In this document: positions 5,098 to 24,463 of the stretch, one piece after another
Numbering within the stretch: position 1 is the stretch's first letter
How the letters are laid out: each line of letters begins with the position of its first letter
The notes under the pieces: generated by a model
Told to the model about the DNA's origin: nothing
Seen by the model: the letters and a program-made list of their open reading frames with translations, nothing else
Database searches by the model: none
Origin: Promethearchaeota archaeon
Lineage (GTDB): Archaea > Asgardarchaeota > Lokiarchaeia > Sigyniarchaeales > SOKP01
Assembly: GCA_014730165.1 (NCBI GenBank)
Contig: WJIS01000185.1
Location: 1-32,371 of the forward strand
Reading direction: 5' to 3'
DNA length: 32,371 bases
Position numbers and translations under genes: made by a program

Positions 5098-6405
5098 ATT
5101 TCAAAAAACCAAAAAATAACCATAATAGGTGCTGGATCTCTTACATTTGGAATGGGAACGGTGGGAACAATAATCTCCAGTGAAATATTAGAAGGATCCA
5201 CAATAACTCTTCATGATATAAATGAAAAAAATCTTGAATTGGTACGCCAAGCTTGCGAGTCAGCAATTAATAAAAAGAAATCAAATTTTACTTTAGAAGC
5301 AACGACAAACCGTACCAATGCGATAAAAGATGCGAATTTTATTATCAACTCTATTGAAGTTGCACCTAGATTTGACTTATTGGATCAAGATTATAAAATT
5401 CCTTTAAATCAAGGATGTATGCAATTATCGGGAGAAAATGGAGGACCAGGAGCATTATTTCATTCATTAAGAGTGATACCTCCAATTCTTGATATTTGTG
5501 AGGATATAATGAAAATATGTCCAAATGCATTATTTATCAATTATTCTAATCCAATGACAAGAGTTTGTTCAGCTATTAATAGAAAATTTCCTTCTCTTAA
5601 ATTTGTAGGGCTTTGTCATGAGTTCTATCACTTTTTACCTTCTCTTTCCAGGATTCTTGATATTCCTATAAATCAATTAGATGTAGAAGGCTATGGATTG
5701 AATCATTTCGGTGTGATAACGAAGTGCAGAGATAAAACTAATAATGAAGATCTCTATCCGATAATTCGTGAAAAAGGACCAGAATTTTTTTATAATGTCA
5801 ATCTTTATGATGGGTTTAAGTTTATAGGATTCTTCTTAGAAAAATATGGATATCTTCCTTATACAACTGACAGCCATTACGGAGAGTATATTCCTTGGGC
5901 TTGGGATAAGGCAGACGTGCCGGCAATCCGTCAATTTTGGAAAGGTTATGAGGGAATGATGGGACAACAGTACCTTAAGTTGAAGAAGCTTATTCAAAAA
6001 GGAAAAGGTGCAAGATTGGTAAAACCTGAAAATGAGCCCGCAATCCCTATTATCGAAGGTATTTTAACAGATTCAAATTATGTTGAACCATCAGTTAATA
6101 TCCCAAATGATAATATAATTACAAACATACCGGAAAATATTGTTGTAGAATGCCCAGCATTAATAAATAGGGAAGGATTAAATGGGATTCCATTTGGAGA
6201 TTATCCTTTAGAGCTTATTGGTTACATAAGAGCTCAAGTTTCTGTTATAGACTTAGTTTTAGAAAGCATATTTCAAGAATCTAAAGATTTAGCATTAAAA
6301 GCGATCCTCATAGATCCGCTTGTATCATCATATAATCAAGCAGAAAGGATTTTAAATCAACTCCTCCGTTTACAAGAGAAGTATATACAAATAAAACTGG
6401 AGTAA
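5098..6405 (+). CDS. Glycoside hydrolase family 4 (NAD/Mn-dependent alpha-glycosidase family)
   Basis: GENGGPGALFHSLR, INYSNPM, VGLCHEF, GLNHFG and HYGEYIPW motifs. The in-frame upstream reading SKNQKITIIGAGSLTFG supplies the Rossmann motif, so the start is extended to ATT 5098 behind AGGTGAG (track start: 5152). Confidence 0.88.
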   Translation: MSKNQKITIIGAGSLTFGMGTVGTIISSEILEGSTITLHDINEKNLELVRQACESAINKKKSNFTLEATTNRTNAIKDANFIINSIEVAPRFDLLDQDYKIPLNQGCMQLSGENGGPGALFHSLRVIPPILDICEDIMKICPNALFINYSNPMTRVCSAINRKFPSLKFVGLCHEFYHFLPSLSRILDIPINQLDVEGYGLNHFGVITKCRDKTNNEDLYPIIREKGPEFFYNVNLYDGFKFIGFFLEKYGYLPYTTDSHYGEYIPWAWDKADVPAIRQFWKGYEGMMGQQYLKLKKLIQKGKGARLVKPENEPAIPIIEGILTDSNYVEPSVNIPNDNIITNIPENIVVECPALINREGLNGIPFGDYPLELIGYIRAQVSVIDLVLESIFQESKDLALKAILIDPLVSSYNQAERILNQLLRLQEKYIQIKLE

Positions 6406-7418: not shown

Positions 7419-9011
7419 TTATTGTGAATTATTTGGTAGAACAACGGAAAAAGTACTTCCTTTCCCATATTTACTCTTTACAAATATAGCACCCCCATGA
7501 GATTGAACCAATTCTTTTGAAATGGACAGTCCTAAACCGCTTCCTTCTTGCTTTTTTGCAGTTTTTGATCGATAGAATTTATGAAAGATTTTCGATAACT
7601 CATCTTCTTTTATACCCATACCTTGGTCAATTATCTCTACAATTACTCCGTTAAGTTCACTTGTTTTTATTTTCTTGGTTGATTCTCTTATATTTATATA
7701 GATAGCCGAATTTTCATTTGAATATTTAATCGCATTATCGACTAATATTCTAAATACTTGTTCTATCCTTTTCAAATCAGCAAAAATCTCATAGTTTTCG
7801 TCATTACTCCAGTGAATATTAATTTTTTTTGATTTCCATTTAGGATTTAATTGATTTATAACATTATCAATAATATCTGTGAGGTTTACCTTTTCAAATT
7901 CCAATTCAATTTTGCCGAGATTAGCTTTGGTATATAGGAGTAAATCATCGATTAAATCTTTTAAAACATTGGTGTTTACCGCCACTATATTCCATAGATC
8001 TTCTTTCTGTTTTTCCGTTAATTGATCTTTATACATATTATAGGATTCGACGGATAAATTGATACTTGAGAGGGGATTTTTTAATTCATGCGAAACTATA
8101 GATGTAAACTGAGTTCTTAGCCTTTCAAATTTCACGAATTCCGATATATCCCTAATTTCGATGATTAAGGCATAGGGTTCAATCTTATGATCAAGATTTA
8201 TAAACTTAGGATGGATTTCTAACCATAATTCTTCCTTAATAGGTTCGACCACGATTTTCTGTTCAGTTTGTGTTTTCAATATATTCTGAATTGTTGAAAA
8301 TAGAATATTTTCATCACCTAATGAGTTGAAATTAACTGAGGGGATTAAGTTTAAACCTGTTAAATCATTGAATAAAGATTTAGCTTTACTATTGATTAAA
8401 AACACATTTCCATCTAACTCAATCACCAAAATTCCATCGGGGATAGATTCAACGAATGATTCTAACTGTTTTTTCGCTTTTCTCTGTTGAACCATTGATT
8501 TTTTTAAAGCTACATTTTTTTTAGATAAATCCCTCTGTAGATTTACTAACTCATTATTTAAACAAGTTAAATCTTCATACCAATCAGTTTCATCATTGGT
8601 TTGTTTACTTGTTATGAAACTGTTATCATTATAATATTTTCTCAATTCACTTATCTGTTCACTCAGTATCCCAATTAAATCTTTGAAAAACTCTTGATAA
8701 GTTAAATCAGATGAGAGAGTTCCCACAAAAATAATTTGTTCATCAATTAAACTACCTGCTAAATTGAGGGGAATTTTTTTATCATATGAATTAAAGAATT
8801 CTATTTCAAGGTTGAATTCAGCTCCATTCTCTTGAATTTTTAGGAGAAAATCTAGAAATTTTAAGAACCCATCAGAAGTAAAGACTTCCCGCATTGAAGA
8901 AATAGTTGAAGGATTACCAAAAACGTTGAAGTAATCATAAATTACCTCAGTAAGATTTCCGTCCAAATCAGAAATAAAAGAGATGCCTTTGGTTTTTTCT
9001 TTCGGATTCAT
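7419..9011 (-). CDS. PAS-domain sensor histidine kinase
   Basis: H-box FTSIVSHELKNPLSSINLS; N-box VDNAIKYS; G-boxes DQGMGIKEDEL and GSGLGLSISKELVQSHGG; PAS-like ESIPDGILVIELDGNVFLIN. Confidence 0.93.
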   Translation of the reverse strand: MNPKEKTKGISFISDLDGNLTEVIYDYFNVFGNPSTISSMREVFTSDGFLKFLDFLLKIQENGAEFNLEIEFFNSYDKKIPLNLAGSLIDEQIIFVGTLSSDLTYQEFFKDLIGILSEQISELRKYYNDNSFITSKQTNDETDWYEDLTCLNNELVNLQRDLSKKNVALKKSMVQQRKAKKQLESFVESIPDGILVIELDGNVFLINSKAKSLFNDLTGLNLIPSVNFNSLGDENILFSTIQNILKTQTEQKIVVEPIKEELWLEIHPKFINLDHKIEPYALIIEIRDISEFVKFERLRTQFTSIVSHELKNPLSSINLSVESYNMYKDQLTEKQKEDLWNIVAVNTNVLKDLIDDLLLYTKANLGKIELEFEKVNLTDIIDNVINQLNPKWKSKKINIHWSNDENYEIFADLKRIEQVFRILVDNAIKYSNENSAIYINIRESTKKIKTSELNGVIVEIIDQGMGIKEDELSKIFHKFYRSKTAKKQEGSGLGLSISKELVQSHGGAIFVKSKYGKGSTFSVVLPNNSQ

Positions 9012-9021
9012 ATAGATTAAC

Positions 9022-10092
9022 TCATCTTAATAATTTACTTGCAGTCTTTATTGCGGATTGAGCATCTGTGGCAAAAGCATCTGCTCCTATTATTTCCCAT
9101 AGGTTTGGAACTATGTTAAAAGGGTAGCCTCCAACCATAATTTTTACGTTTTTCGCTTCGGTTTTTCTAATTTGAATAATCATTTCTTCCACTGTCGACA
9201 CATGGATCATAATTGTTGCCGAAACCGCGAGAAGATCCGCATTATTATTAATAATTGATGAAATAATACTATCTATGGGAGTATTCGCACCTAAGTAATA
9301 CGTATCCCAACCTTCCATCTCAAAAAAATCAGCAATCATTCTTATACCTAATTCATGTAGCTCCCCTCCTATACATGTAGCTATCAGTGTATTTCCTATT
9401 TTTTCCGATGAGAAGATCTTATCATATAATCTTGAAATTATAAGTTGTGTGACTGCCGTAGAATAATGCTCTTGTGCTACATTTATTTGATTGGTTTCCC
9501 ATAATCGTCCTATTTCCTGTTGTACCGGTTGAAAAATATCAATATAAATATCTTTAATATCAATATCTTGAGAGATTAAATTTCTAATGAGTGTATCAGC
9601 TTCACGTTTTTTCCCATTTAATACATAATCTAGATATTTTAAAGCAACTTCTTTATGATCGTTTGTATCATTTATATAGCTAAAATCCCTTCGCTTCTCA
9701 TCCTTGATAATCGATATAGCATTATCTAAATAAAGATTTACAATTTTTTTTTCAGTTGGAAATTTTTCTTCTAATATCTCTTTCATTGATTCGAATGTTA
9801 TAACCAGGCTTTTTCTTGAAAGGTTTCGAGAGAGTAAAAGGGATTTTGTCCATCTAATATATTCATTAAATAAAGCTTCCTGGGTATAATGAATTGAATG
9901 TGATAAATAATTCAAATGGTATTGAATATCTTCATATGATCTCCTTTTATCTGTATTGGAATACTGAGAATTCAAATGAGGTAATTTATCAAAAATTCTC
10001 TTGTATATTTTTTTTGATAATTTTTCAATATCTTGACTAATATTTCTTACGATTGAACTATAGACCTTGCGATCAGTAACCTTAGACGACAT
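9022..10092 (-). CDS. Cobalamin (B12)-binding sensor protein, CarH/LitR-like photosensory module
   Basis: Helical domain with WETNQINVAQEH (W-x9-EH) followed by IATCIGGELHELGIRMIADFFEMEGWDTYYLGANTP (ExHxxG B12-binding Rossmann domain). Separated by 10 nt from the downstream histidine kinase gene. Confidence 0.88.
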   Translation of the reverse strand: MSSKVTDRKVYSSIVRNISQDIEKLSKKIYKRIFDKLPHLNSQYSNTDKRRSYEDIQYHLNYLSHSIHYTQEALFNEYIRWTKSLLLSRNLSRKSLVITFESMKEILEEKFPTEKKIVNLYLDNAISIIKDEKRRDFSYINDTNDHKEVALKYLDYVLNGKKREADTLIRNLISQDIDIKDIYIDIFQPVQQEIGRLWETNQINVAQEHYSTAVTQLIISRLYDKIFSSEKIGNTLIATCIGGELHELGIRMIADFFEMEGWDTYYLGANTPIDSIISSIINNNADLLAVSATIMIHVSTVEEMIIQIRKTEAKNVKIMVGGYPFNIVPNLWEIIGADAFATDAQSAIKTASKLLR

Positions 10093-10255: not shown

Positions 10256-11740
10256 TTATTTTTTCAGTTTGGGTAGCAATACTATGAATTTTGAGCCCAT
10301 TTTATAGTTGCCTTCAATTCTATCTTCCACCCATATTTTTCCTTGATATTTTTCAATTATCACCTTTACTAATGAAAGACCAATTCCCATACCCTTAGAA
10401 CCTTTTAGATCTTTTTTACCTTTATGAAAAATGATTTCTTTTTTTTCATCCTTTATTCCCAGACCATTATCTATGAATTGTAATTTGATGTATTCTCTAT
10501 CGTCGACTATTTCCATTGATACTTTAATAATAATCTCTATTTTAGAATTATTATTATATTTTATACTATTTGTTAAGATATTACGAAATACCTCACCAAG
10601 GAAACGGTTAGCTAAAATGACATATTGATTGATTTCATTATTTCTTTCGATTAAAATTTCCTTCTCCTTATACATCTTTTTTATATATTCTAATTGCCTA
10701 TCTAATATTCCAATAAGTTCAATAGGTTCTAATTCAATATCCTTTTCTTCTAATTCTGATAATCGATGGATACTATTAATTAGAGCAGCTCCTTGTTGAG
10801 CTTGATTCTTAATGATTTCAAGATAGGATTCTATTTTATCATCAATATCGTTTTTATCATAACTTATTAATTCGGAGGAGGATATTATGACTTGTAAAAT
10901 GTTATTCATATCATGAGTAAATAAATCCCTGTATAGATTCGCTTGTTCATATGCATCTCGATATCTTTTTTCTGATTTTTTGAGTTTTTCTTCAGCTTTT
11001 TTTTTGTCAGTTATGTCTGAAATTAGAGCAACCGCTCCGATATACTTCTCTTTTTCTGTAAATAGAGGAGAAGCACTAAGCAGTACCGAAATTCTTTTTC
11101 TATCTTTCCCAACAAATACAAATTCATGTTGTTCCCTAATCCCTTGCTTCCCGCGTTTTAGGTTTTTTTTAGCTATTTTTTTATATTCTTCATCCATGTA
11201 ATTAAATAGATGAGCATCCAACATCTCCTCTCTTCTATATCCTAATATTTCTGCCATTCTGTCATTTACAAAACTTGTGTAACCATGTTCATCGATCATC
11301 CAAATTCCTTCATGTGCATTCTCTACTATTAAACGGTATTTTTCTTTGGATAATTTTAATTTATCTTCGATTTTTCTAGTTTTAGTTTTATTTTGATTGA
11401 TCGCTACTATTTCAGTTGGATTTCCATTTTTATCCTTTATCAATGAAACCGATGAAAAGATATGGATTTCCTCGCCATTTTTAGTATACTGTACGACGTC
11501 TCCTTTCCATTTGCCTTCTTTTTCAAACTCCATTAAAACTTTATCTTGTTCTTGATTAATATATTCAATTCTAATCGTATTCATTATATTTTTTCCAATT
11601 ATTTCTTCTGCTTTCCAACCATATGTGAGTTCCGCTGCTCTGTTCCATGCTTTAATATTAAATTCCAAATCTGTAATGATAATTGCATCAGAAATTTTAT
11701 TAAAAAATTGAAGACTCGGTTCCTGTTTATCTGGTAACAT
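10256..11740 (-). CDS. Multi-PAS sensor histidine kinase
   Basis: Two PAS domains (ISDAIIITDLEFNIKAWNRAAELTYGW; VENAHEGIWMIDEHGYTSFVNDRMAEILGY), H-box FTHDMNNILQVIISS, HATPase N-box NILTNSIKYN, G-box GSKGMGIGLSLVKVIIEKYQG. Confidence 0.93.
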   Translation of the reverse strand: MLPDKQEPSLQFFNKISDAIIITDLEFNIKAWNRAAELTYGWKAEEIIGKNIMNTIRIEYINQEQDKVLMEFEKEGKWKGDVVQYTKNGEEIHIFSSVSLIKDKNGNPTEIVAINQNKTKTRKIEDKLKLSKEKYRLIVENAHEGIWMIDEHGYTSFVNDRMAEILGYRREEMLDAHLFNYMDEEYKKIAKKNLKRGKQGIREQHEFVFVGKDRKRISVLLSASPLFTEKEKYIGAVALISDITDKKKAEEKLKKSEKRYRDAYEQANLYRDLFTHDMNNILQVIISSSELISYDKNDIDDKIESYLEIIKNQAQQGAALINSIHRLSELEEKDIELEPIELIGILDRQLEYIKKMYKEKEILIERNNEINQYVILANRFLGEVFRNILTNSIKYNNNSKIEIIIKVSMEIVDDREYIKLQFIDNGLGIKDEKKEIIFHKGKKDLKGSKGMGIGLSLVKVIIEKYQGKIWVEDRIEGNYKMGSKFIVLLPKLKK

Positions 11741-11959: not shown

Positions 11960-13285
11960 ATGAATCAAAAAATAGTATTAATAGGAGCGGGCTCAGCCGC
12001 ATTCGGTCCTCCTACTTTAACGGATCTTTATTTATCTAAAGATTTAGAAGGGTCAAGAATCATTTTCCATGATATTGATGAAGAAAAATTGAATATGGTT
12101 TATGAGGTGATCACTAAGGAGAACGAGAGATTAGGTAATAAATATATCATTGAAAAAACTCTGGATAGAAAAGTTGCGCTTCAAGATGCCGATTTTGTAA
12201 TATGTTCAATAGAGCACGGCGATAGATTTGAATTACGATGGCAAGATAACACCATTCCAAGAAGATATGGCACTACAGAAATGATGGGAGAAAATGGTGG
12301 ACCAGGTGGTTTTTTTCACAGTGCGAGACAAATCCCGGAGATCTTAAGAATTGCTGAAGATGTGAATAATATTTGTCCTGAAGCATTTTTTATTAATTAT
12401 TCAAATCCTATGAGTAGGATTTGCTTAGCATTACACCGAGTTTATCCAAATCTGAAAATGTTCGGTCTCTGTCATCAAATAGAGTTATTAACAAATCAAC
12501 ATTTACCCAATATGTTAAATAAAGAGCTGAGCGATTTGGAGCTAGTAGTTGGGGGTTTAAATCATTTTGCTTTTTTATTAGGGCTTAAAGAAGTCTCTAC
12601 GGGAAAAGACATACTCCCAGAGTTCCATAAAAAATGCTTTGATTACTTTGAAGGGAAATGGGATAGATTCCATTATGCGGATCTTACATTCGAAGTCTAT
12701 AAAAGATTTAATATGTTTCCATACGTAGGCGATAATCATTTGTGTGAATATGTTCAATTTGGGTCAGAATTTACCAAAGTCATTGATCTAGTAGATTGGA
12801 TTACTATGATGGAACAAGGAAAAATCGGTACTAACAAGAGATTAGAGAGATATTATAAAAGATTACTAAAAGAAAAATACCCAAGAAAAGGTTTACTAAG
12901 TGCTCAGCCATCGGGAGAAAGAGCAATAGCGATTATTGAAGCAATAGTAAAGGATAAAAATTCATACGAGTATGCTGTGAATATTCCTAATGATGGAATT
13001 ATTGAGAATTTACCAAATGACTTAGTCGTTGAATGTTCAGCGAGAGTTAATAAGCAAGGACTGCGTGGAGTTAAATTAGGAAAACTTCCAAAAGATCTCG
13101 CTGTTCTTTTAGGAAGAGAAGCTGCGATTCAAGACTTATGCATTGAAGCTATTCTGAAGGAATCAAAAGAGTTAGCAATCAATTGTCTCGCAATGGATGT
13201 AAATTGCGGAAGTTTTAAGATTGCAGAAAAAGTATTTGATGAAATGATGGCACTTCAAAAAAAATATTTACCAAATTTTAGATAA
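11960..13285 (+). CDS. Glycoside hydrolase family 4 (second paralog)
   Basis: KIVLIGAGSAAFGPPTLTDLY, GENGGPGGFFHSAR, INYSNPMSR, FGLCHQI, GGLNHFAF; clearly paralogous to 5098-6405. Confidence 0.93.
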   Translation: MNQKIVLIGAGSAAFGPPTLTDLYLSKDLEGSRIIFHDIDEEKLNMVYEVITKENERLGNKYIIEKTLDRKVALQDADFVICSIEHGDRFELRWQDNTIPRRYGTTEMMGENGGPGGFFHSARQIPEILRIAEDVNNICPEAFFINYSNPMSRICLALHRVYPNLKMFGLCHQIELLTNQHLPNMLNKELSDLELVVGGLNHFAFLLGLKEVSTGKDILPEFHKKCFDYFEGKWDRFHYADLTFEVYKRFNMFPYVGDNHLCEYVQFGSEFTKVIDLVDWITMMEQGKIGTNKRLERYYKRLLKEKYPRKGLLSAQPSGERAIAIIEAIVKDKNSYEYAVNIPNDGIIENLPNDLVVECSARVNKQGLRGVKLGKLPKDLAVLLGREAAIQDLCIEAILKESKELAINCLAMDVNCGSFKIAEKVFDEMMALQKKYLPNFR

Positions 13286-21078: not shown

Positions 21079-21228
21079 TTACTCGGGAGGGATAATTTCG
21101 ATTTCTATCGCTGAGACATTGCTTTCGGTACCATCTTTATTTGTCAGCTTCTCGGTTTCGATGGTAATATCGCCGTAGCTAGCTCCTTTGGCGAATCTTA
21201 TTGGGTAACCTTCTCGGATCTTGTGAGA
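21079..21228 (-). pseudogene. C-terminal remnant of an unidentified minus-strand gene
   Basis: Minus-strand reading RWSHKIREGYPIRFAKGASYGDITIETEKLTNKDGTESNVSAIEIEIIPPE*; protein-like composition, no start, interrupted at the MoxR junction by an in-frame stop. Confidence 0.45.
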
Positions 21229-21885
21229 CCAGCGACTTTAATTGGTTCTTTTGACCCCACTCTAGTTTTTAAATATGGATTTTCTCCAGAATCATATATT
21301 CCCGGTCCATTCACGTTAGCTGGATTAAAAGGTGGTGTATTTTTAGCAAATGAGTTTAATAGAGGTGATGAATACGTTTTGAATAGTATGCTCGATGCTA
21401 TGGAAGAGAGACGACTTTATATTCCACAACTTAAGACATGGTTAAAAGTTCATAATGATTTCTATGTAATTGCGGCGATGAATCCCGCAGAATTAAAAGG
21501 AACTAGAAAATTGCCATCCGCAATAAAAGACCGAATAAAGGTTTGGATCCATTTAGATTATCCCCCTAAATCTCTCGAACAGAAAATTATGATCGGAAAT
21601 TGTCCCGAATACAAATTATCAGCACTAACTCAAGAGAAGATAATAGAATTAATAATTCAATGTAGAAATCATCCATTAGTAGAGAAACCGCCTAGTCTTA
21701 GAACAAGTATTGGGATTGCTAGATTTGTATCTGAAAGAGCGCAAAGATTAGGTAAAAAGGTTGATAATAAATTAATAGCTGAATCCGCTAAACTAATATT
21801 ACCTGATTCTACTGAATTAAAACCCGGAAAAAACATAAATAAGTTTTTGAAAGATATATTGGTCAAAGTTGTCGGAGTATATTAA
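21223..21885 (+). pseudogene. MoxR-type AAA+ ATPase lacking its N-terminus (no Walker A)
   Basis: TLIGSFDPTLVFKYGFSPESYIPGPFTLAGLKGGVFLANEFNRGDE (Walker B) ... AMEERRLYIPQL ... FYVIAAMNPAELKGTRKLPSAIKDRIKV are MoxR; no GxxGxGKT upstream. The GTG start lies in unrelated sequence. Confidence 0.75.
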
Positions 21886-21904
21886 TACTTATTGATGAAA
21901 GGAT

Positions 21905-24463
21905 GTGAGTCAAATAAAGATTGATAAAGGTAATATCGGTGATTATTCAAATAATCGTGTACTTGAATGGAAACCAATCTTTTTTGCAATTGAATTTATT
22001 TATCGTATGAGACGAAGGAAACATAAATTATTAAACATCCCAAGCACAAGACAGGCAATTGCTATTCCAAAATTGATTAGTGCAATTTATCATCGAAAAT
22101 ACAATTTAATTCCAGATGATTTTATAAAAGCTGCTGTAATAACTACGCCTATTGAAGATCAAGAGATTGCTCGAAAAATTGCGTTTGACATAATTTTTTC
22201 TGATAAGAAAAAGTCAAAATTAATCAATTCATCAACACTAGACAATAACTTAATGCAAATTGACGAAGAGAATGATGACGATGATTTGATGGAAAATTTA
22301 ATCGGTGACATTTTCGATTCTAAAATAGATTTAGAAAATTTTGATACAGAGGAAGAGATCAATCAAACTCTAAATGATTTGGAGAGTTTGGGAGATTTTG
22401 TAAATAATTTCTTTGATAAAGCAGCTCTCTCTGAAGAACCCTTCTTTAGTTTGTTAAGTTTTTTGCAATCGAGAGGAGGTTATAGCGAAATGTTGAAGAA
22501 AGGTCTTACTGAATTAGAAAAAGTCCAGAAATTTACCCACAAATCATTTATTCGAGACATTAATAATTTATCACCTACAGATGTAAGTTCTGTAGTTAAT
22601 TTGGGGTGGGGAGATGATTTGATGGATCAATCAAAAATTCCGTGGATAAGAATAGCAGCACAATATTGTATGGAATCAAAAGATTTTCAGTCAAAATTAT
22701 CTAAAACTTTAAAAAACGATGAAATTGGTATATGTGCTAATACTCTGGGATATCTTGAAAAAGTTGGAATGGATAAATCTAAAGTTGAAAAACTAGCTAA
22801 TCAGCTAATTGAAAGATCAGAAAATCTTATGGAAATTATGGAAATTTCGGGTGTTTTAAACTATATACCTGATTTTAATATTGATAAGATTTTAGATAAT
22901 AGCTTGGATAAGGATTTAGCTACATCATTTCATATAAGTCGGCAATTAGATAAACAATTTAATTCGAAATTAACAAAAGAGTTATTTACTAAATGGGTTA
23001 GTAAAAATTCTTCTCCAAAATTATCCGAATTATTTCAAGCTCAAACAAATATTTCAAGATGGAAAGAAACAGTAGAAAAAAAAATAAATCAAATAATTGA
23101 TGATTTTCTTTCTCATAACGGTCATGCTTCGTACGATTTAGAGGATCTTTCCCATAAATTAATGCACTATGCAGATAAAGCAGATCTTGAATTCTGCAGG
23201 GAAGTATTTGCTGGGATGGCCTCTAAAGTTGGAATGCAATCACTAAAAGCAGCTCATAATCAAAAAAGACTTGAAGATGCACTTAAATCCTTGATAGAAA
23301 ATCAAATTACCATAGATAAAGTAGAAGTGATTGATTATGCCAAAACACTAAAAATTCCGGAAGAAAAGATTCTAGAGATATTGGGTGGTAGTTTTGAGAT
23401 TTTGAAATCTCTTTTTTTGAAAAACATATCCAATTTCGAAAGGTATAATAGAATTCTAAAAAATCTAAAATCTCTGACAATGTCTCAAATAGAGGATATT
23501 AGCCGGATAGCTATAAATAACGAGAATTTTGCAGGATTAGCCGCAATAGGACATTATGATCTTGGAAAGTCTTTTAAATCAGTTTCAAAAATTGGAAAAT
23601 CCGCTCAGAAACTCCTAGCGGAATCATTATCCGCTGGACCTGGTGATAATTTATTAATACAATGGTTTATGCACCGTCGTCAAGTTCCTCAGCATCTCAA
23701 AGATTTTGTACAAAATCTTGTTAAGGATGCTCTTATAAAAATTGCTCTAAGTTTCATATCAAATCAGAGAGGTAGTGGAGAGAAGGGATTGATTCCTACC
23801 AATCAATTGCGCATGTTTATTGAAGGAGATGATATGGATCTAATTGATATTGATGCATCAATAGAAAATATTATTATGCAAGGTAAATCATTAAATATGA
23901 TAACTATTGATGACCTAATGGTCAGAAAAACAGAAAAAGGTAGGGTTTCCATATGTTTTCTATTAGATATCTCTGGTTCTATGAGCGGAATGAAATTAGC
24001 AGCATGCTCTATAGCCGTTATGGTGTTAATCGGGTCTTTACAAGCAGAAGAGGTAGCTATTTGCTTCTTTGAATCGAATACACATATTGTAAAAGAATTT
24101 GGTGATAAAAAGACTTTAGAAGAAGTTGCTGATGAATTATTAGTCTTATCAGCACGAGGAGGTACTCAAGTTCAAGCAGCTTTAAAATGGGGGGCGCAAC
24201 AGTTAGAAGAGACATTGACTGAAACAAAGTTTTGTTTTCTTTTAACCGATTGTCAATTTTCTGAATCAAAAGACCAGATTGTGAAAGAAATGGAAGAGTA
24301 TCTCAATCAAAAGGTAAAATTCATTTTAGGTGTTAATACAAAATCTTATAGTAAAAATTACGCTGATTGGATTTTAGACACAACTAAAGGTGAAATAGTT
24401 CATATTTTAAATATTATGGATATTCCAAAGATCCTAACGGATCTTCTTGATAATATTGGCTAA
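21905..24463 (+). CDS. Large von Willebrand factor A (VWA) domain protein, MoxR-associated
   Basis: C-terminal MIDAS FLLDISGSMSGMKLAACSIAVMVLIG, ARGGTQVQAALKWG, CFLLTDCQFSESKDQI; immediately downstream of MoxR. Long helical N-terminus. Confidence 0.87.
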   Translation: MSQIKIDKGNIGDYSNNRVLEWKPIFFAIEFIYRMRRRKHKLLNIPSTRQAIAIPKLISAIYHRKYNLIPDDFIKAAVITTPIEDQEIARKIAFDIIFSDKKKSKLINSSTLDNNLMQIDEENDDDDLMENLIGDIFDSKIDLENFDTEEEINQTLNDLESLGDFVNNFFDKAALSEEPFFSLLSFLQSRGGYSEMLKKGLTELEKVQKFTHKSFIRDINNLSPTDVSSVVNLGWGDDLMDQSKIPWIRIAAQYCMESKDFQSKLSKTLKNDEIGICANTLGYLEKVGMDKSKVEKLANQLIERSENLMEIMEISGVLNYIPDFNIDKILDNSLDKDLATSFHISRQLDKQFNSKLTKELFTKWVSKNSSPKLSELFQAQTNISRWKETVEKKINQIIDDFLSHNGHASYDLEDLSHKLMHYADKADLEFCREVFAGMASKVGMQSLKAAHNQKRLEDALKSLIENQITIDKVEVIDYAKTLKIPEEKILEILGGSFEILKSLFLKNISNFERYNRILKNLKSLTMSQIEDISRIAINNENFAGLAAIGHYDLGKSFKSVSKIGKSAQKLLAESLSAGPGDNLLIQWFMHRRQVPQHLKDFVQNLVKDALIKIALSFISNQRGSGEKGLIPTNQLRMFIEGDDMDLIDIDASIENIIMQGKSLNMITIDDLMVRKTEKGRVSICFLLDISGSMSGMKLAACSIAVMVLIGSLQAEEVAICFFESNTHIVKEFGDKKTLEEVADELLVLSARGGTQVQAALKWGAQQLEETLTETKFCFLLTDCQFSESKDQIVKEMEEYLNQKVKFILGVNTKSYSKNYADWILDTTKGEIVHILNIMDIPKILTDLLDNIG

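Follow-up and report, generated by a model that had tools for sequence, protein, structure and literature searches.

Photoglobins, introduced by Schneider et al. in 2022 and taken up in PMC10151467 and PMC10979010, are said to be non-heme globins that are related to phycobiliproteins and work together with signalling partners and domains for B12 binding, and a CXQD motif has reportedly been found in them. Photoreceptors that employ both B12 and biliverdin were described in 2024 as photocobilins (PMC10979010). In SasPcob, Asp270 holds the A-C rings of the bilin and Trp296 touches the D ring and the corrin; in AbDPcob, the bilin-contact Asp is replaced by His and biliverdin is bound weakly (PMC10979010). 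A light signature of GxxW, EH, GxxH and GxxxP selected 1,561 of 128,000 sequences (PMC11796333). CarH sits in carotenoid clusters, which sometimes include isoprenoid genes such as HMGR (PMC9304148).

The window, i.e. the complete stretch of 32,371 nucleotides that was analysed, carries on its minus strand a gene for a protein of 356 aa (9022..10092) with an N-terminal photoglobin and a C-terminal CarH-type cobalamin-binding domain. Based on Pfam, phmmer, AlphaFold2 and Foldseek, the protein almost certainly belongs to the photocobilin family. The Phycobilisome, B12-binding_2 and B12-binding matches were all above the Pfam cut-offs, and the top three PDB sequence matches were the photocobilins 8j2w, 8j2x and 8j2y (E 1e-25 to 5e-19). 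With 8j2w and 8j2x, phmmer also aligned query residues 52-110 to the C-terminal globin, i.e. in permuted order. The full-length AlphaFold2 model (pLDDT 95.0, pTM 0.90) was matched to 8jbs, 8j2y and 8j2w using Foldseek. The gene is followed after 10 nt by that of a histidine kinase of 530 aa with PAS, HisKA and HATPase_c domains (7419..9011, minus strand; ORF list and Pfam). Very probably, this is a photocobilin that stands alone, its globin preceding the CarH-type domain, and that acts as an AdoCbl light switch signalling to this kinase. The globin-first order represents a known group and no new architecture, because photocobilin groups with the B12 domain at either end have already been reported (PMC10979010).

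The cobalamin domain is composed of a four-helix bundle (PF02607, B12-binding_2; residues 152-222, 9427..9639, minus strand; Pfam, 59 bits) and a Rossmann-fold B12-binding domain (PF02310; residues 236-346, 9055..9387, minus strand; Pfam, 82 bits), the latter including GELHELG with the lower-ligand H246 as well as GANTP. By motif reading, W-x9-EH was located from W198 to H209 (WETNQINVAQEH; 9466..9501, minus strand), with ETNQINVAQ between W198 and E208; the corresponding residues lie on the adenosyl side in CarH and photocobilins (PMC10979010). All four elements of the light signature are present, namely GRLW195 (GxxW), EH208 (W-x9-EH), GELH243 (GxxH) and GANTP268 (GxxxP), and the cobalamin part of the model fitted 8j2w and 8j2y at 1.8-2.1 A (Foldseek). 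An earlier note on this DNA had described a 356-aa reading frame with W-x9-EH and GELHELG, and both motifs are there (W198-x9-E208-H209 and G243-ELHELG). The CarH-type photosensor core proposed in that note is borne out by the four signature elements and the PF02607 and PF02310 matches, and its statement that a MerR DNA-binding domain is missing agrees with the Pfam scan, in which no MerR match was obtained; the N-terminus is a globin. Membership in CarH/LitR was ruled out by the lack of the MerR domain and by the score against the NCBIfam CarH equivalog (51 bits vs. a cut-off of 400). Of the CarH-like module, the cobalamin photosensor core therefore stands, but the protein is not simply CarH on an unknown domain; it is a photocobilin, a B12 plus bilin type of receptor.

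The N-terminus, regarded earlier as an uncharacterised all-helical domain, was instead recognised as a photoglobin, i.e. a globin of the bilin-binding type (residues 13-130, 9703..10056, minus strand). This is based on a PF00502 (Phycobilisome) match covering residues 13-127 with 23.8 bits (cut-off 22.2) and on an allophycocyanin-like predicted fold. The AlphaFold2 model of the isolated domain reached a pLDDT of 92.9, and its best Foldseek matches were allophycocyanin (TM 0.83) and other bilin proteins (TM 0.71-0.83 overall). A heme-binding globin sensor was ruled out, as the top fold matches were phycobiliproteins and not heme globins. Residue mapping identified D55 (9928-9930, minus strand) and W81 (9850-9852, minus strand) as the equivalents of Asp270 and Trp296 of SasPcob, using a numbering offset of 6 residues (Trp61 has position 55 in the printed chain). 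A CXRD motif with a chromophore-linking Cys was not found, residues 52-55 being SYED, and the sole Cys of the protein, C240, lies inside the B12 domain.

Homologues were collected in one genome scan yielding 80 loci; Bacteroidota, Chloroflexota, Acidobacteriota and Bacillota were represented along with further lineages, Asgard archaea and a Methanolobus among them. Together with the second copy of the host, 81 relatives were aligned. W198, E208, H209 and H246 were invariant across these 81, and W198, E208 and H209 in the 55 relatives aligned with the window protein, but the scan was seeded with exact peptides (DFFEMEGW and others), by which conservation within the seeds is inflated by construction. 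D55 was kept in 71 of 74 relatives and W81 in 72 of 72. Three plasmid-borne homologues from Azospirillaceae, retrieved by plain tblastn without motif seeding, had retained W198, E208, H209, W81 and D55, so that the conservation of W-x9-EH, whose absence the earlier note had named as a refutation, was found in unseeded homologues as well. The ten Asgard copies obtained by whole-genome search all possess W198, E208, H209 and W81, and D55 is present in all but one (Glu). A quick tree, drawn with regard to horizontal transfer, scattered the Asgard copies and had long branches and many open forks. Its longest branch is that of a very divergent Asgard copy (L131, G162:C453, 1347-2414) with Glu at the position of the bilin-contact Asp.

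The pairing with a histidine kinase 10 nt away, pointed out in the earlier note, is genuine and widely conserved. Of the 80 loci of other genomes, bacterial and archaeal, 72 have a homologue of the window kinase as the first or second downstream gene on the same strand, most often with a 4-nt overlap or a few nt apart. Photocobilin and kinase are therefore considered a conserved two-gene unit and not chance neighbours. The kinase (all features on the minus strand) consists of a PAS-like N-terminal domain (residues 1-110, 8682..9011; weak hhalign match to PAS, probability 73%), a coiled-coil-like linker conserved in the partner genes (residues 105-182, 8466..8699; consensus LNNELxNxQRELxKKN), a HisKA phospho-acceptor domain with SHELKNP (7920..8117; Pfam, 42.8 bits) and a HATPase_c kinase domain (7431..7778; Pfam, 97 bits). 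Residues N152, N153, R160, L162 and L169 of the linker are nearly invariant. Over 73 loci, the window included, linker and kinase core were each shared with the window kinase in 67 cases, and the N-terminal domain was common to 26 partner kinases in a single-sequence search. Pfam analysis of the 73 downstream genes gave HATPase_c in 63, HisKA in 61 and receiver domains in 14; in the window, the response regulator lies outside the photocobilin-kinase unit. It is likely that the photocobilin signals to the paired kinase. Four Hymenobacteraceae have, next after the photocobilin, a gene for 164-200 aa that keeps the partner linker without the kinase core (L032:7014-7508, L034:7073-7594, L041:6944-7513 and L071:6960-7562). 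This gives the impression that the linker protein became detached from, or was fitted to, a different output.

A second histidine kinase of PAS-PAS type (10256..11740, minus strand; Pfam) adjoins the photocobilin gene at a distance of 163 nt upstream, and the gene order HK / photocobilin / HK recurs in the sister species G155. For the photocobilin, a binning artefact was ruled out by a 65% identical copy in a genome of the same genus, in which the order HK-photocobilin-HK is kept; this copy adjoins a family 4 glycoside hydrolase of the same type as that of the window. The archaeal host assumed for the sensor is supported. Two similar proteins are encoded on either side of the kinase/photocobilin group, at 5152-6405 (+) and 11960-13285 (+). 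The latter is the family 4 glycoside hydrolase, a type found beside the group in G155 also, and the former resembles it as a relative when judged by eye. At 21223-24463 (+), the gene of an AAA (MoxR-like) ATPase precedes that of a large protein with a VWA domain, the two forming an ATPase/VWA pair. Carotenoid, rhodopsin and photolyase genes were not detected among the window ORFs examined; such genes are located elsewhere in the genome.

A whole-genome search of the phylum revealed photocobilins in 9 of 228 Asgard genomes and 5 of 62 genera. Genes of the phytoene synthase family above the cut-off occurred in 30 of the 228 genomes and in 8 of the 9 photocobilin carriers, and rhodopsin above the cut-off in 15 and 5, respectively. 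One-sided Fisher tests gave p = 3e-7 for phytoene synthase and 7e-5 for rhodopsin by genome, which is too strong due to shared ancestry, and p = 0.010 and 0.005 by genus, the fairer level although with few events. The second photocobilin of the host (L132, G000:C257, 4660-5718) is situated in a carotenoid/isoprenoid cluster with HMG-CoA synthase-like reading frames, phytoene synthase, CrtI-type phytoene desaturase, type 2 IPP isomerase and a small membrane hydroxylase; no kinase adjoins the photocobilin at that locus. Photocobilin, phytoene synthase, phytoene desaturase, photolyase and rhodopsin are combined on one contig in L125 (G067:C17) and L129 (G068:C38). The names of photolyase and desaturase come from Pfam/NCBIfam for G067 and from the matching sequence for G068, and a 166-aa protein beside the photocobilin at these loci had no NCBIfam match. 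One copy of G162 (L131) adjoins a kinase, a glycosyltransferase and a phytoene synthase that is truncated where the contig stops. This Asgard pattern resembles the placement of CarH in carotenoid clusters (PMC9304148). The host also encodes a microbial rhodopsin of 202 aa (L152, G000:C226, 1468-2076, minus strand; PF01036, 80 bits). Some Asgard archaea might switch a light programme of carotenoids, rhodopsin and photolyase by means of photocobilins, with one host copy acting via its dedicated kinase and the other in the carotenoid cluster, and with a bilin that is either not heme-oxygenase biliverdin or acquired from outside; taken as a whole, this scenario is possible but rather doubtful.

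AdoCbl is plausible in the host, since two copies of a CobA-type adenosyltransferase are encoded; a PduO-type enzyme is absent from the genome. An AdoCbl-based light response of the window photocobilin is highly probable, and the chances that bilin is used in vivo are about even. Somewhat below this ranks the explanation that the protein is a green-light sensor working with B12 only, the photoglobin covering the corrin as a structural lid that stays empty and bilin being unused in the archaeon. A biliverdin source in the host is a requirement for function and does not define the family. It would agree with the lack of canonical heme oxygenase (PF01126) in all nine photocobilin-bearing Asgard genomes, host included, with the light response of AbDPcob at only ~20% biliverdin occupancy (PMC10979010), and with the single ABM-family protein of the host, which lacks the Trp and His of IsdG-type enzymes and was ruled out as an IsdG-like bilin source on these grounds. 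However, the bilin-contact Asp that is lost in AbDPcob is kept here as D55, both D55 and W81 are nearly invariant in the family, and bilin could be supplied by the environment or by another enzyme. At 24 bacterial loci (range L032-L080), a small ABM-family gene of one subfamily was present, almost always directly upstream of the photocobilin (e.g. L036:5673-5972 and L041:5641-5940). The encoded proteins of ~99 aa are related to the heme-degrading IsdI, IsdG and HmoB; they keep the Trp and His of IsdI but have Ser in place of its Asn, so that heme degradation, and with it a possible bilin source in these bacteria, is a suggestion.

An adenosylcobalamin or corrinoid-status sensor that reports to the kinase independently of light is unlikely. 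In darkness, free AdoCbl could decide on the dimer state, and the 32 PF02310 matches of the host genome indicate a heavy corrinoid metabolism; yet W-x9-EH marks characterised photoreceptors and is missing in the other inspected corrinoid proteins of the genome except the C257 paralogue (GxxW-x9-EH was found in the B12 protein at 2 of 30 inspected PF02310 loci, namely in the window protein and this paralogue). The motif thus goes beyond chance. Light has better support than B12 status as the signal sensed, given that photocobilins in Asgard archaea are accompanied by carotenoid, rhodopsin and photolyase genes. Very improbable is a role as corrinoid carrier in a methyltransferase system (MtaC/MtbC/MtgC type) with the kinase as an incidental neighbour. 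The fold is common to 3ezx, and the NCBIfam matches include the MtgC_2 and MtbC models, but their scores stayed far below the cut-offs (66 of 370, 51 of 350 and 50 of 215 bits), no methyltransferase was found among the window genes scanned with Pfam, and the kinase partner is kept in most loci, as given above. The extra globin domain and the presence of W-x9-EH also stand against a methyl carrier, which was ruled out on the NCBIfam cut-offs, the motif and the globin.

For the preferred reading as a light-responsive photocobilin, the following course is proposed. In the dark, AdoCbl would be held between the four-helix bundle, with W198, E208 and H209 towards the adenosyl group, and the Rossmann fold, with H246 serving as the lower ligand, and the AdoCbl-bound protein would probably be dimeric; a linear tetrapyrrole could occupy the pocket of the globin (D55, W81) next to the corrin. 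By green light, or by red light if bilin is bound, the Co-C bond would be broken, the adenosyl group released and the dimer changed. We infer this cofactor occupancy and photochemistry, and also a contact between photocobilin and kinase, through which the kinase would read the dimer change by its PAS-like N-terminal domain and the conserved linker. The signal would then pass by phosphotransfer to an unlinked response regulator, with photoprotection or light-linked physiology as likely outputs. Dimer change, phosphorelay and target genes are modelled on SasPcob, AbDPcob and CarH.

Asgard archaea are the closest known relatives of eukaryotes, and rhodopsins are already known from Asgard lineages. 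The kind of receptor is known as well, through the photoglobins of 2022 and the photocobilins of 2024, and the family is widespread in bacteria (PMC10979010). Apparently new are the photocobilin in Asgard archaea, its rarity there and the link to carotenoid, rhodopsin and photolyase genes. A literature search with the 2022 photoglobin paper outside it yielded no report of Asgard archaea with a B12 photoreceptor or a photocobilin, of the Asgard linkage to carotenoid, rhodopsin or photolyase genes, or of the IsdG-like upstream gene; neighbouring kinases or members from archaea may already be given in the 2022 paper. If the reading is true, visible light governs the physiology of some Asgard lineages by way of a two-pigment receptor plus phosphorelay, beside the known rhodopsins. 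With its placement near light genes, the photocobilin opens light control in Asgard archaea to testing. The tight and conserved photocobilin-kinase pair lends itself directly to green/red optogenetics as a system of two parts, and the IsdG-like gene upstream of many bacterial copies suggests a possible origin of the bilin in those bacteria.

In comparison with the described systems, the window protein is most similar to SasPcob (8J2W, 8J2X) and AbDPcob (8J2Y), with which it shares the CarH-type cobalamin domain, W-x9-EH, ExH and the five-helix bilin-binding globin (Zhang et al. 2024, PMC10979010). With SasPcob it has the Asp270/Trp296 equivalents in common, and like the photocobilins it has no bilin-linking Cys. 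Unlike in the two crystal structures, the globin is N-terminal, i.e. the domain order is reversed; the bilin-propionate contact His137 of SasPcob is replaced by Ser274, the host is an Asgard archaeon, and a separate partner kinase takes the place of the fused cyclase or the partners from stress pathways. The phycobiliprotein-related globin coupled to a B12 domain and a signalling partner conforms to the photoglobin family, but SYED without Cys stands in place of CXQD. The N-terminal fold is that of the bilin domains of allophycocyanin and ApcE (9i1r, 4xxi; TM 0.71-0.83), although it is part of a putative sensor and not of an antenna and is devoid of the chromophore-linking Cys. CtMerR (8JBS), the closest match of the cobalamin-domain fold by E-value, is light responsive; it is a MerR-fused regulator without the globin that the window protein possesses. 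CarH and LitR (5C8A-5C8F) have the cobalamin photosensor core with its signature residues in common with the window protein, and the carotenoid neighbourhood of the C257 copy resembles the usual CarH target genes. In contrast to these regulators, the window protein carries a photoglobin instead of a MerR DNA-binding domain, and its putative output is a kinase and not direct repression.
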